From the IMG/VR virus record IMGVR_UViG_3300031784_000199, positions 1 to 23,803 of that record: a stretch of DNA of 23,803 nt. One strand, 5' to 3'. This DNA is from a virus. The notes beneath the pieces were generated by a model. That model made no database searches and was not told the DNA's origin. It saw only the letters and a list, made by a program, of their open reading frames with translations. Numbering within the stretch: the stretch's first letter is position 1; each line of letters opens with the position of its first letter. Positions 15,377 to 21,299 of the stretch are shown here, piece by piece. The position numbers and the translations under genes were made by a program.

Positions 15377-15566
15377 TTGCGGCTCCGATTATCATTCAAA
15401 AACATATGCTTATTCAGTTGATAAGCGTCGCCGACAGAGATGCCGTAATGGGCGAGTCGCTCACGGACCCGGCGTTGGGCTGCCTGTTCCGTCAGAGGCT
15501 GGTTATCGTCCTGTCACGGGCGACCATTCCGGTCGGCCTCAACGATCCGAACGGGGGGAAGAGACC
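15377..15566. other. Non-coding stretch between TerS and the transposase
   Basis: 190 nt. The first about 50 nt are AT-rich and contain the half-site at 15397-15411 and a GCTTAT/ATAAGC dyad (15408-15413 with 15421-15426, 7-nt loop). On the minus strand this is the leader of TerS and may hold the late promoter. Nearer the transposase is a CGACC/GGTCG hairpin (15521-15525 with 15531-15535). In IS110-group elements the bridge RNA is encoded in this 5' flank, so it is one of two candidate locations. Confidence 0.45.
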
Positions 15567-16607
15567 ATGGATCATTTTGTCGGCATCGACGTATCTCTTG
15601 AAAGCTGCGCCGTTTGTGTCTTGACCCAGTCAGGCACTGTGGCGCGGGAAGCAAAGATCGCCTGCGAACCCGAGGCGCTGATCGCGTTCCTGCGCGAGAT
15701 GGATGTGAGCATCACCGGCATCGGGCTCGAGGCCGGCCCCTTGTCGCAATGGCTGCACCGGCATCTCTGTGCTGCAGGGCTGGAAGCGGTGTTGATGGAG
15801 ACGCGCCAGGTGAAAGGCGCATTGAAGGCCATGCCGATCAAGACTGATCGCCGTGACGCGCTCGGCATCGCGCAGCTGCTCCGCATGGGCTGGTTCCGCC
15901 CGGTACACTGCAAGTCGGTCTCGGCGCAGGAACTCCGGGCGCTGCTCGGGGCGCGCCGGACGCTTCAGAAGTCCATGATCAGCATCGAGTTGTCGATGCG
16001 CGGCATGCTGCGCGGGTTCGGCCTCAAGCTCGGCCAGATTACACGGCGGCGGTTGCCGGAGCGCGCCCGCGAACTGGCGGACGGCAACGAGATGCTGACG
16101 GCGATGGTGACCGCGATGCTGCGCGGCCACGCCGCCCTTCGCAGTGAACTCGCGAAGCTCGAGAACCGGTTGCGCCGGATCGCGCGGGCAGACCGTGTGT
16201 GCCGACTGATGATGACCGTTCCTGGCGTGGGCGCCGTGGTGGCGTTGCAGGTCAAGGCAGGGATCGATGATCCCGCGCGCTTCCGATCCTCGAAGATGGT
16301 CGGCTCGCACTTCGGCCTGACGCCGCGCCGCGAGCAGTCCGGCGAACGCGACGTGGTGGGGGCGATCAGCGCCGCCGGTGACCAGAACGTGCGTACTGCG
16401 CTTTTCCAGGCCGCGACGGTGATGCTCTATCAGTCGCAGACGAAAAGCTGGCTGAAGGCCTGGGGCCTGCAGGTCGCCAAGCGGCGCGGCATGAAACGCG
16501 CCGTCGTGGCCGTCGCCCGCCGCCTTGGCGTCGTCCTGCACCGGATGTGGAGCGACGGCACAACTTTCAGTTTGGCGCATCCGGCGGGCGCCAGCGCAGC
16601 GGCGTGA
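15567..16607 (+). CDS. IS110-family transposase (bridge-RNA-guided recombinase)
   Basis: 346 aa. The N-terminal RuvC-like DEDD domain begins 'MDHFVGIDVSLESCAVCVL' with 'GIGLEAGPLSQWLHRHL' and 'PIKTDRRDALGIAQLLRMGW', giving the acidic residues. The C-terminal Transposase_20 region reads 'MMTVPGVGAVVALQVKAGID', then 'FGLTPRREQSGERDVVG', whose serine is the probable nucleophile. Both domains are intact, so the gene may be active. The start at 15567 follows a GGGGGGAAGAG stretch; an in-frame extension reaching back to 15102 passes through the antisense of TerS and is rejected. It lies upstream of and divergent from the phage late operon. Confidence 0.93.
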   Translation: MDHFVGIDVSLESCAVCVLTQSGTVAREAKIACEPEALIAFLREMDVSITGIGLEAGPLSQWLHRHLCAAGLEAVLMETRQVKGALKAMPIKTDRRDALGIAQLLRMGWFRPVHCKSVSAQELRALLGARRTLQKSMISIELSMRGMLRGFGLKLGQITRRRLPERARELADGNEMLTAMVTAMLRGHAALRSELAKLENRLRRIARADRVCRLMMTVPGVGAVVALQVKAGIDDPARFRSSKMVGSHFGLTPRREQSGERDVVGAISAAGDQNVRTALFQAATVMLYQSQTKSWLKAWGLQVAKRRGMKRAVVAVARRLGVVLHRMWSDGTTFSLAHPAGASAAA

Positions 16608-18245: not shown

Positions 18246-18461
18246 TCAGGAGCGACGCCATCTTTCGAACAGCCGCCGCAGGACGTAGGATCGCGCTATG
18301 CTCACGACGGTGAACACCGCGCCCATCTTGAGGTTCTGCGCCAGCGTCGTGTGCAGCCCGAAGACCGGGAAGATCAGGATCTGCGTCACGACTGCGACAC
18401 CGTAGCCGACGATCACGTTGGCGACGGCTTCGACCAGCGACATGAGACGGGACTGCTTCAT
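18246..18461 (-). CDS. DUF7220-family small membrane protein
   Basis: 71 aa with two probable membrane segments: 'VEAVANVIVGYGVAVVTQIL' (about residues 10-29) and 'NLKMGAVFTVVSIARSYVL' (about 43-61), and an arginine-rich end ('RRLFERWRRS'). The N-terminal 'MKQSRLMSLVEAVANVIVGYG' is the signature I associate with DUF7220 proteins of alphaproteobacterial phages. The start overlaps the stop of the second reading frame of the methyltransferase locus by ATGA and lies 9 nt after the methyltransferase stop. Its function is unknown. Confidence 0.75.
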   Translation of the reverse strand: MKQSRLMSLVEAVANVIVGYGVAVVTQILIFPVFGLHTTLAQNLKMGAVFTVVSIARSYVLRRLFERWRRS

Positions 18462-19030
18462 GCCGTCACCTCATCCGTCGGCAAACAGTTCAGCTGCCAG
18501 AGTTCTGAGCGCATGCGCCGCAACCAGGGGGACCACGCCGTTGCCACAGAGGCGAAGCCGGTCCACCCGGTGGGCCAGCCCATCAGCGCCTCGACGAACA
18601 GCGGGTTCAAGGTCCGGCGCACATCGGAGGTATCGCTCCCAGCCATCTGCGTCGCCAGGACCTGGCGGCCAAGCAGGCCGTTCACCGGTGTGTTCGCCAG
18701 TGTCGTCGCCCCGTCCTTGTGATCGCGCGCCGTCGGGGTCATCCACATCCCCGCCGCATGGGTCAGATCGGCCGACCGCCGATTGCCCGCGCTCGGCTTG
18801 CAGCCATCGTTCGCCATCGGCGTTGGCCAGTCGCGCGCCATCCGGTCCAGACCCTTCTCTTCCTTCCGCTCGCCGCCCCGACTGCGGAAACTGTCGATCT
18901 GAGGCGTCGGCCATAGGGCTGCCGTCGTCGCCAGGTTCATCCCGTGCTGGCCCGCTTCCTGCGACGGTGTGGGTTTGGTCTGCCGGTTCTCGTTGGCGCT
19001 CGCCCTCGGCGTGGGCCATAGGCGCATCAT
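18458..19030 (-). CDS. Possible overlapping gene in the methyltransferase 3' half ('WPTP'-repeat frame)
   Basis: A second open frame on the same strand as the cytosine methyltransferase. From about 19095 it reads a repeated motif: 'SWPTPRA', 'LWPTPRA', 'LWPTPQI', 'DWPTPMAND', 'MWMTPTARDHKDG', then 'LNPLFVEALMGWPTGWTGF'. That string matches a family I recall from phage methyltransferase loci. A candidate start is the ATG at 19030 (190 aa); the frame itself is open from 19657. Its stop overlaps the next gene's start (ATGA), whereas the methyltransferase stop lies 9 nt away. Either this is a truly dual-coded segment, or homologues use one frame or the other. In GC-rich DNA long shadow frames are common, hence the low confidence. 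Confidence 0.35.
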   Translation of the reverse strand: MMRLWPTPRASANENRQTKPTPSQEAGQHGMNLATTAALWPTPQIDSFRSRGGERKEEKGLDRMARDWPTPMANDGCKPSAGNRRSADLTHAAGMWMTPTARDHKDGATTLANTPVNGLLGRQVLATQMAGSDTSDVRRTLNPLFVEALMGWPTGWTGFASVATAWSPWLRRMRSELWQLNCLPTDEVTA

Positions 19031-19700
19031 TTCCGTCCGGTTCCCGCCACTCGAGCGGGTGCCAGAGCAGGCGCGCGGGGTCGGCCAGCTCGTCCCCCTC
19101 CCGGATGGCAAGGATGAAGAGCCGCTCACGCTTGTGGGGGGCGCCGACTTCCGCCGCCGTGAAGAGGCCTGCCGCAAGGCGGTAGCCCATGCCGACCAGT
19201 CCTGCGGCGACTTCGGGGAAGCCGAGGCGGAGATGATGGGCGACGTTTTCGAGGAAGACGAAGGGCGGCCCGACCTCGCCGATGATGCGGGCGACATGCG
19301 GCCAGAGATGGCGTGGGTCGTCAGCGCCCCTGCGCTTGCCCGCGACGCTGAACGGCTGGCACGGATAGCCCGCAGTGACGATGTCCACCGCGCCGCGCCA
19401 CGGGCGGCCGTCGAAGGTTCCAACGTCGTCCCAGACAACAGCCTGATCCAGGGACGCGTCTTCCATCCGCGCCACGAGAGTGGCTGCGGCGTAGGTTTCC
19501 CGTTCGACATGGCCCACAGCACGATATCCGGGGGTGGCGATGGCAAGCCCGAGGTCGAGTCCGCCCGCGCCGGAACAGAGAGAGAGGCCGAAGAGGCATG
19601 CGTCTCCGGCTCCGGAAGCATGCCCGGAGGAAGGTAAAGCCAGGTCATGCATGTCACGCGGCAGGTTCGGGTTGGGTTTCTTCAGGCGCGGCCGGGGCAT
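18471..19700 (-). CDS. DNA (cytosine-5) methyltransferase
   Basis: 409 aa. Motif I is 'LSLCSGAGGLDLGL' (about residues 39-52), motif IV 'AGYPCQPFSVAGKRRG' with catalytic Cys114, motif VI 'LENV' (150-153), motif VIII 'KRERLFILA' (about 190-198), and the late motif 'LCGNGVVPLVAAHALRTL' lies near the C-terminus. The target-recognition region (about 205-375) is odd: low-complexity, with repeated 'LADP', 'MADA', 'LANADGERW' units that also read as another repeat in the +1 frame. It probably methylates phage DNA against host restriction. The start at 19700 has GAGAGG 7 nt upstream; an alternative ATG at 19652 sits just after the upstream stop. The chosen start overlaps the upstream methylase by 47 nt. 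Confidence 0.88.
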   Translation of the reverse strand: MPRPRLKKPNPNLPRDMHDLALPSSGHASGAGDACLFGLSLCSGAGGLDLGLAIATPGYRAVGHVERETYAAATLVARMEDASLDQAVVWDDVGTFDGRPWRGAVDIVTAGYPCQPFSVAGKRRGADDPRHLWPHVARIIGEVGPPFVFLENVAHHLRLGFPEVAAGLVGMGYRLAAGLFTAAEVGAPHKRERLFILAIREGDELADPARLLWHPLEWREPDGNDAPMAHAEGERQREPADQTHTVAGSGPARDEPGDDGSPMADASDRQFPQSGRRAEGREGSGPDGARLANADGERWLQAERGQSAVGRSDPCGGDVDDPDGARSQGRGDDTGEHTGERPAWPPGPGDADGWERYLRCAPDLEPAVRRGADGLAHRVDRLRLCGNGVVPLVAAHALRTLAAELFADG

Positions 19701-20997
19701 CCCCCAGCCTCTCTGTTCTCACCAGTGCGAAGGTCCGGCCATCGCCATCGAGGATTGCTTCGCGCCCTGTGTCGGCTTGCCAGCGTTCGACGGCCACATC
19801 GATGTAAGCCGGGCTGATTTCCATCGCGAACACGCGGCGGCCATTGGCCTCGCCCGCCATGATCTGTGAACCGGAGCCCGAGAATGGCTCGTAGCAGAGG
19901 CCACCCCGGGCCACATGCTGGCGCATCGGGATCCCGAAGGCGTCGAGCGGCTTCGGCGTCGGATGGTCGGGCCGGTCGTCCTTGGCAAAGCTGGGCAGCG
20001 CCCATGTCGACGGCAGCGTTTCCTCGGCCACCTTCGGCGGCCGGTTCGGGCGGCGCCAGCCCATGAAACAGGGCTCGTGCTTCCAGAGGTAGTGGGACCG
20101 GGTCAGGACGCCGCGGTCCTTCACCCAGATGATCTGCTGGTGCACGAAGGCCCCGGCCTTTTCCCAGCACGCTTCCAGCATCGCCTGGCGACGCGAGGCG
20201 TGCCAGCAATACCACGCGGCGTTTTCTGCAATTGCTTCCGCCACGGCGGCAGAAATGAAGCCGTCGTAAAGCTCGGCCCCCTGCGAACTGTCGTCCCAGG
20301 TCGTGCCATAGGAGGCCGACCAGTCCTTGTTTCGAGTCGGATGGTTCGAACCGTCATAGTCGACGAGGTATGGCGGGTCGGTTGCAAACAGGATCGCCCG
20401 CTCGCCATTCATCAGGCGGCGCACGTCAGCAGCGCTGGTGCTGTCGCCACAGAGCAACCGATGTTCGCCGAGGATCCACAGATCGCCGGTCCGCGACGCC
20501 GGGTTGCGCGGCGGTTCGGGGATGGTCACCGGAGGCACCGAGCCCCCGGTGCCACCTTCTTGCCCGTCCCCCTCAGGAACGTAGGCCAGCAGCTTGTCCA
20601 ACTCGCCGTCGGAGAAGCCGACGAGCGACAGGTCGAAATCCTCAGCCAGCAGGTCGTTCAGTTCCGCAGACAAAAGCGCCTCGTCCCAGGTGCCGAGTTC
20701 CGTCAGCTTGTTGTCGGCAATGCGATAGGCCCGCCGCTGCGCCTCGGTCAGATGCCCGAGCACGATCACAGGCGCTTCGGTCAACCCAAGCTGCGTTGCG
20801 GCCAGCACCCGGCCATGACCCGCGATCAACTCGCCGTCCTCTCCCACGAGGCACGGCACGGTCCAGCCGAACTCGGCCATGCTGGCGGCAATCTTCGCGA
20901 CCTGGTCCGCGCCATGCGCCTTGGCATTGCGGGCGTAGGGCTGGAGCTTGGCCAGCGGCCACATCTCGATCCGATCCGGGGCAAAGCTCAGCGTCAT
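19654..20997 (-). CDS. ParB-domain / DNA N6- or N4-methyltransferase fusion
   Basis: 447 aa. An N-terminal ParB-like nuclease/partition fold ('MWPLAKLQPYARNAKAHG', 'VPCLVGEDGELIAGHGRVLAA') occupies about residues 1-100. A methyltransferase follows, with motif IV 'TDPPY' (206-210) before motif I 'FSGSGSQIM' (372-380), i.e. the beta-class order, and 'HPTPKP' (345-350). It would methylate adenine N6 or cytosine N4 in phage or host DNA. Such ParB-fused methylases are common in alphaproteobacterial prophages. No restriction enzyme is present, so it is a solitary methylase, probably for self-protection or regulation. The start at 20997 was preferred over 21105, whose extra residues lie in the repeat region. 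Confidence 0.88.
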   Translation of the reverse strand: MTLSFAPDRIEMWPLAKLQPYARNAKAHGADQVAKIAASMAEFGWTVPCLVGEDGELIAGHGRVLAATQLGLTEAPVIVLGHLTEAQRRAYRIADNKLTELGTWDEALLSAELNDLLAEDFDLSLVGFSDGELDKLLAYVPEGDGQEGGTGGSVPPVTIPEPPRNPASRTGDLWILGEHRLLCGDSTSAADVRRLMNGERAILFATDPPYLVDYDGSNHPTRNKDWSASYGTTWDDSSQGAELYDGFISAAVAEAIAENAAWYCWHASRRQAMLEACWEKAGAFVHQQIIWVKDRGVLTRSHYLWKHEPCFMGWRRPNRPPKVAEETLPSTWALPSFAKDDRPDHPTPKPLDAFGIPMRQHVARGGLCYEPFSGSGSQIMAGEANGRRVFAMEISPAYIDVAVERWQADTGREAILDGDGRTFALVRTERLGDAPAAPEETQPEPAA

Positions 20998-21032
20998 CAG
21001 CGGGTCATTCCTTGGATCAAGGTGGATACCCC

Positions 21033-21299
21033 TGGCTTCCGGACTCCGGGGTCCAGACTGGACTCCACGCAGGGTCCAGTGGCCACCGGGGGTGTCCAGC
21101 TTCAAGGGTTTGAATTTGCAGTGTTTCAGGCGAATTCAGGCGGTGCTGGCTTCCGGGTGGCTTCCCAAAAATCCGGCCCTGTCGCTAGCGATGTGCCGCG
21201 CTTCGCCCGCCAGCATACGAATATGGCCAGGAAGGAACCAGAAATCAGTGGGTTAGCGGGATGGACCCCGGCTGGACCTTCTCTGGACCCCGGAAGCCA
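21033..21299. repeat. Cluster of short direct and inverted repeats (possible origin or operator array)
   Basis: GGTCCAG occurs at 21050-21056 and 21073-21079 (GTCCAG again at 21094-21099) and in inverse form CTGGACC at 21272-21278 and 21283-21289. TGGCTTCC occurs at 21033, 21147 and 21158, and inverted at 21292-21299. The outer ends form an 11-bp perfect inverted repeat: CCGGGGTCCAG (21046-21056) with CTGGACCCCGG (21283-21293). The function is unknown; iterons, an operator array or a small mobile element are the options. Confidence 0.6.

Follow-up and report, generated by a model that had tools for sequence, protein, structure and literature searches.

M.AquI (CYCGRG) is a natural two-polypeptide DNA cytosine-5 (C5) methyltransferase, and M.EcoHK31I (YGGCCR; Lee, Kam and Shaw 1995) also consists of two polypeptides; the larger one carries motifs I-VIII and X and the smaller one motif IX, and the predicted target-recognition domain (TRD) is assigned to the larger subunit (PMC3404938). 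An orphan methyltransferase of a Bacillus prophage has been predicted to share the YGGCCR specificity of M.EaeI (PMC4722110). M.HaeIII and M.HhaI are single chains with a TRD and a motif IX of their own. Within a partial coverage of the literature, we found no open paper on a nested layout of such genes in phages, only remarks on EcoHK31I. Here, we describe a locus in a virus record of 23,803 nucleotides (IMG/VR IMGVR_UViG_3300031784_000199, positions 1 to 23,803; this whole stretch is called the window) that, judging from sequence comparisons, is likely to encode a naturally split C5 methyltransferase made of two polypeptides, alpha and beta, from overlapping frames.

The two frames and their neighbours

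The window contains genes for a lambda-type portal, a GpA-type terminase, a capsid, and a tape-measure protein. An IS110-family transposase gene (15480-16607, plus strand) adjoins the terminase genes on the opposite strand. The methyltransferase locus has the following features:

19654-21105, minus strand: N4/N6-type DNA methylase gene (PF01555), immediately upstream of alpha and beta
18471..19652, minus strand: alpha, predicted C5-cytosine methyltransferase ORF (frame A), 393 aa, from the first ATG of ATGCATG to TGA; PF00145 match
19059..19652, minus strand: predicted alpha catalytic domain, residues 1-198 (AF2, PDB match, variation at frame A third positions)
19586-19560, minus strand: alpha motif I, LSLCSGAGG
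19370-19347, minus strand: alpha motif IV, GYPCQPFS (PCQ)
19250-19233, minus strand: alpha motif VI, ENV
19145-19116, minus strand: alpha motif VIII, GAPHKRERLF
18654..19058, minus strand: alpha linker, residues 199-333 (LADP/MADA/LANADGERW units), stop-free and without protein constraint in frame A
18474..18572, minus strand: alpha motif X, residues 361-393
18458..19648, minus strand: putative beta (frame B, +1 relative to frame A), up to 396 aa from a candidate ATG at 19648; extent taken from homologue starts and stops
18458..19093, minus strand: beta core, putative WPTP target-recognition region and motif IX (frame B wobble positions vary, first and second positions nearly fixed)
18560..18610, minus strand: motif IX-like block of beta, LNPLFVEALMGWPTGWT, nearly invariant in the alignment
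18249..18461, minus strand: next gene (DUF7220), starting at the ATGA shared with the beta stop

By its motifs and fold, alpha is predicted to have C5-cytosine methyltransferase activity. It holds motifs I-VIII, the linker, and motif X, and its stop is the TGA at 18473-18471. PF00145 matched alpha with 111 bits in Pfam (cut-off, 22), and the match spans motifs I-VIII only; motifs I, IV, VI, and VIII all lie in one catalytic domain, whereas a TRD and a motif IX are missing from this chain and their equivalent sits in frame B. The AF2 model of alpha was confident at around residues 18-190 and in motif X (blocks 371-390), and the linker was disordered, with pLDDT mostly 30-50. The top PDB match was M.HaeIII, over 170 columns without the TRD, and the M.HhaI fold was matched as well. 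The alpha start at 19652 was taken from the conserved ATGNATG and the upstream stops of homologues; a start at 19700, which would give a longer ORF, is not supported, because several homologues have in-frame stops upstream.

The original prediction had placed two open frames in the 3′ half of the methyltransferase gene, one ending with the GNGVVP motif and the other, in +1, giving WPTP units and LNPLFVEALMGWPTGWT and overlapping the next gene by ATGA. We located all of these on the minus strand at the place indicated, with GNGVVP at 18545-18528 and five W(P/M)TP units (WPTP or WMTP) starting at 19087, 19018, 18913, 18829, and 18745. The overlap is real, but its extent had been drawn too narrowly, as frame B is open from 19657 and has an ATG at 19648, four bases past the frame A ATG at 19652. 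The frame B stop, TGA at 18460-18458, forms ATGA with the DUF7220 gene, whose ATG starts at 18461, and this junction was found in 99 of 106 homologues. At the motif IX-like block, one piece of DNA reads as DGLAHRVDRL in alpha (18584-18555, just before GNGVVP) and as ALMGWPTGWTG in beta; DGL-x-x-R is common at this position among alpha proteins.

The prediction had left the second frame unnamed, and a proposed identity is added here. Among the best homologues, identity was 89-94% for frame B versus 81-90% for the whole of frame A. Two PHROGs families, phrog_1008 (labelled "DNA methyltransferase") and phrog_27243 (of unknown function), have matches to the beta frame and therefore look like beta-subunit families. 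A beta profile gave no sequence match in the PDB. The AF2 model of beta alone was unconfident (mean pLDDT, 51) except around the motif IX block, which would be compatible with folding of beta upon contact with its partner but is no proof of it.

Selection on the two frames and the start of beta

A codon alignment of 104 distinct homologues (P0001 numbering; interrelated and thus non-independent) showed that the positions free to vary shift along the gene. From A codon 1 to ~200, variation is mostly at A third positions, whereas at A codons ~205-340 it is at A first positions, which are the wobble positions of B, with hardly any change at A third positions (B second positions). At codons ~364-381 all three positions are nearly fixed, and A third-position variation resumes from codon ~382, that is, in motif X. 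The order of constraint is thus A, B, both, and A again, with the constraint on beta beginning at TSWPTP, and this codon pattern shows that both frames are under selection, in different segments. In two further homologue sets, pairwise counts put 50-55% of the differences in the WPTP region at B wobble positions. Selection confined to the methyltransferase frame, which would have spoken against dual coding, is contrary to this pattern, the overlap being constrained in the WPTP frame. Nor did close homologues have stops in that frame over the overlap; across A codons 207-345 of P0001, both A and B were stop-free in all 104 homologues, whereas the third frame held 428 stops. When codons were reshuffled synonymously for B, 2.0 A stops per sequence were expected and only 11% of sequences remained open, versus the observed 0 stops in 104.

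Frame B is also protected upstream of the WPTP region. With the A protein held fixed, 121.5 frame B stops were expected in the last 90 codons of I-VIII across 47 diverse, non-redundant loci (<80% identity) and 0 were observed, while the third frame, as a control, had 198 versus 197 expected; 39 other loci had 3 frame B stops versus 68.9 expected. Immediately ahead of motif IV, diversity at fourfold-degenerate A sites drops from 0.72 to 0.61 (P = 9e-8). In a Rhodobacterales set of closely related sequences, the stop deficit in the first half of frame B was similar in the third frame; because of this relatedness the comparison carried no information there, and the non-redundant sets were used instead.

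It is scarcely credible, given these data, that GC-rich composition and conserved methyltransferase motifs produce the WPTP frame as a side effect, without any protein being made from it. The genome is GC-rich, off-frame shadows of conserved motifs do look conserved, and in the earlier part of I-VIII of the same 47 loci frame B stops were near-neutral (98 versus 119 expected). However, the constrained frame changes along the gene in every set tested, a codon-phase switch that contradicts this explanation, and the nested layout also occurs at moderate GC with many third-frame stops (a Paenibacillus plasmid at 44%, and several I-VIII regions at 0.37-0.5). An open frame arising by chance from GC content was ruled out by the stop counts and the codon-phase bias.

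In the window clade, a beta start at ATG 19648 is likely but not settled, because the extraction of homologues relied on the ATGNATG pattern, absent from 3 of 139, and because frame B is broken in its first half, before the WPTP region, in three of the 136 close homologues; this first half may therefore be dispensable or untranslated in the clade. The 11 bases of TGACATGCATG (19646..19656, minus strand) hold the stop of the upstream methylase, the alpha ATG (19652), and the beta ATG (19648), and since the methylase stop TGA touches both starts, the three frames may be translationally coupled. The exact TGACATGCATG was found in 96/136 homologues and ATGNATG in nearly all. The second ATG, that of beta, was present in all 136 extracted homologues, with alpha residue 2 varying among H, D, N, and Y, and frame B was open to a stop 10-37 nt past the alpha stop in 133 of them. 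A TTG at 19423 is an alternative candidate. An internal start near the WPTP region was rejected for the window clade, as no conserved ATG, GTG, or TTG was found there between B residues 158 and 237; ATGATG at EMMRLWPTP was likewise discarded as unconserved.

In other clades, the beta start appears to lie immediately ahead of motif IV, and a Shine-Dalgarno-like site often accompanies it. A beta consensus (EQLTLS.DSLAS...LTWK...FQL.PS.PRT.ET.SSLWPTP) appears at this place, and in many short-start loci a GGAGG-type site precedes a start codon here, e.g., AAAAAGGAGGTTTCCTAATG in L291.

Fused, frame-split, and nested relatives

Of the 306 first-round loci, one was fused and six were frame-split. 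In the fused locus, L300, a single ORF contains motifs I-VIII, a WPTP unit, LNPDWVECLMGFPIGWT, and motif X; our search for more fused loci returned none beyond L300/L394, which are the same contig. In the six frame-split loci, the A ORF ends right after motif VIII and the +1 ORF consists of WPTP units, an LMGFP block (motif IX), and motif X. Because of this fusion and these six loci, we place beta in the position of the TRD and motif IX. L300 also shows, at the level of sequence, that a natural ORF exists in which beta motifs are fused in frame to a methyltransferase. The second of the two readings offered by the original prediction, frame switching among members of the family, is partly true, although such members are rare; true dual coding is the better reading, supported by codon phase, stop avoidance, and conservation across phyla.

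The frame-split loci would make sense as frameshift fusions, and the A/B boundary has a G-rich stretch, GGGAGGGGG, close by. Both would suit a programmed +1 ribosomal frameshift after motif VIII that yields a fused protein of I-VIII, TRD, and motif IX alongside full-length alpha. Boundary frameshifting is nevertheless disfavoured, because frame B is stop-protected for ~90 codons upstream of the boundary, which such a mechanism would not need, and because beta has its own start sites, with Shine-Dalgarno-like sequences at internal starts in many loci. Moreover, A positions at codons 200-204 vary, leaving no invariant slippery heptamer, and the fusion product would be without motif X in nested loci. 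We therefore consider such a frameshift improbable.

We give equally little chance to the idea that beta is a separate protein with a role other than supplying the TRD and motif IX, for instance, one that regulates alpha or the host. The ~100 extra N-terminal residues of beta in short-start lineages, with a conserved consensus of their own, would agree with such a role, as would the failure to find a known fold, but L300 has the beta motifs in the same frame as I-VIII and X, the six loci have them in the same frame as X, and alpha itself shows no constrained TRD or motif IX.

The nested layout, with motif X in A, was found in 292 of the 306 first-round loci with beta and in 81 of the 82 second-round loci that were scorable in both frames. 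It occurs in Sphingomonas, Roseicitreum, Paenibacillus, and Lacticaseibacillus and in phages of Bacteroides, Erwinia, and cyanobacteria. Overall, the phages or plasmids that have it are alphaproteobacterial and enterobacterial ones and those of Paenibacillus, Lacticaseibacillus, Bacteroides, and cyanobacteria; sequence matches show beta to be conserved across phyla. Among laboratory coliphages, Bas72 is an example with this arrangement. In the cyanophages, both frames match at the same place. A beta query of the Erwinia type matched 218 phage records, including phages of E. coli, Klebsiella, Salmonella, and Rhodobacter. In a Paenibacillus plasmid (L165, 2501-3300), the motif IX segment is duplicated (GQLNPTWVECLMGFPLDWTS and GQLNPAWVECLMGFPLGWTNIS), and only the first copy is inside the beta ORF.

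Public annotation is inconsistent. Both frames are annotated as methyltransferases in Paenibacillus phage Bloom (BLOOM_56/57) and E. coli phage K1ind2 (gp32/gp33), and frame B is an annotated CDS in Komagataeibacter phage phiKX1, Synechococcus phage Ssp-JY39, and a Sphingomonas plasmid; in other records, only a single frame carries an annotation. For the Bloom and K1ind2 overlaps, we found annotation only and no analysis in the literature covered. On the whole, we lean toward the view that this is an old and very widespread nested gene, in which the recognition subunit of a split cytosine methyltransferase is overprinted on the gene of the catalytic subunit (in short-start lineages, catalytic motif IV is part of the overprinted stretch), that phages of Pseudomonadota, Bacillota, Bacteroidota, and cyanobacteria have retained it, and that most annotations show a single ORF or pick the wrong frame.

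A putative split enzyme and known systems

In the arrangement that we propose, alpha (19652-18471) would provide motifs I-VIII and X, joined by a long unstructured linker, and would carry out AdoMet binding and the attack on cytosine, and beta (+1, ending at 18458) would provide the target-recognition region with the WPTP units and the motif IX-like LNPLFVEALMGWPTGWT and would read the target site. Beta, for which the twin ATGCATG next to the upstream gene's stop is a possible start in the window clade, would be made as a separate protein, bind alpha, and set the specificity, the two assembling on DNA into one active enzyme. Its biological role may be, for example, the protection of phage DNA. 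If this is true, many annotated phage "orphan" cytosine methyltransferases are half an enzyme, a recoded clone of the annotated ORF could yield an inactive protein, and specificity predictions from the middle of alpha are meaningless. The family would also be a large natural data set on two proteins sharing one DNA over the long term, with fused, split, and nested forms together, and naturally split methyltransferases for use in targeted methylation could be drawn from it.

Among known systems, M.HaeIII and M.HhaI share the fold of the alpha catalytic domain, but alpha matches these complete single chains over only ~170 columns. The split of M.AquI (I-VIII and part of the variable region in one chain; the rest, IX, and X in the other) resembles that of the six frame-split relatives; in the window, unlike in M.AquI, motif X stays with alpha instead of joining motif IX in the small subunit. 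The M.EcoHK31I small subunit is reportedly encoded within the gene of the large one, in a different frame, and in the window locus the small frame is likewise nested inside the large one. As in M.EcoHK31I, the larger chain at the window locus has I-VIII and X, and motif IX is in the smaller; the likeness is one of layout. The two differ in that the constrained TRD region of the window locus lies in the small frame, as judged from the codon data. The YGGCCR prediction may connect phage members with the EcoHK31I/EaeI group. The same nested layout as in the window is seen in BLOOM_56/57 of Bloom and gp32/gp33 of K1ind2.
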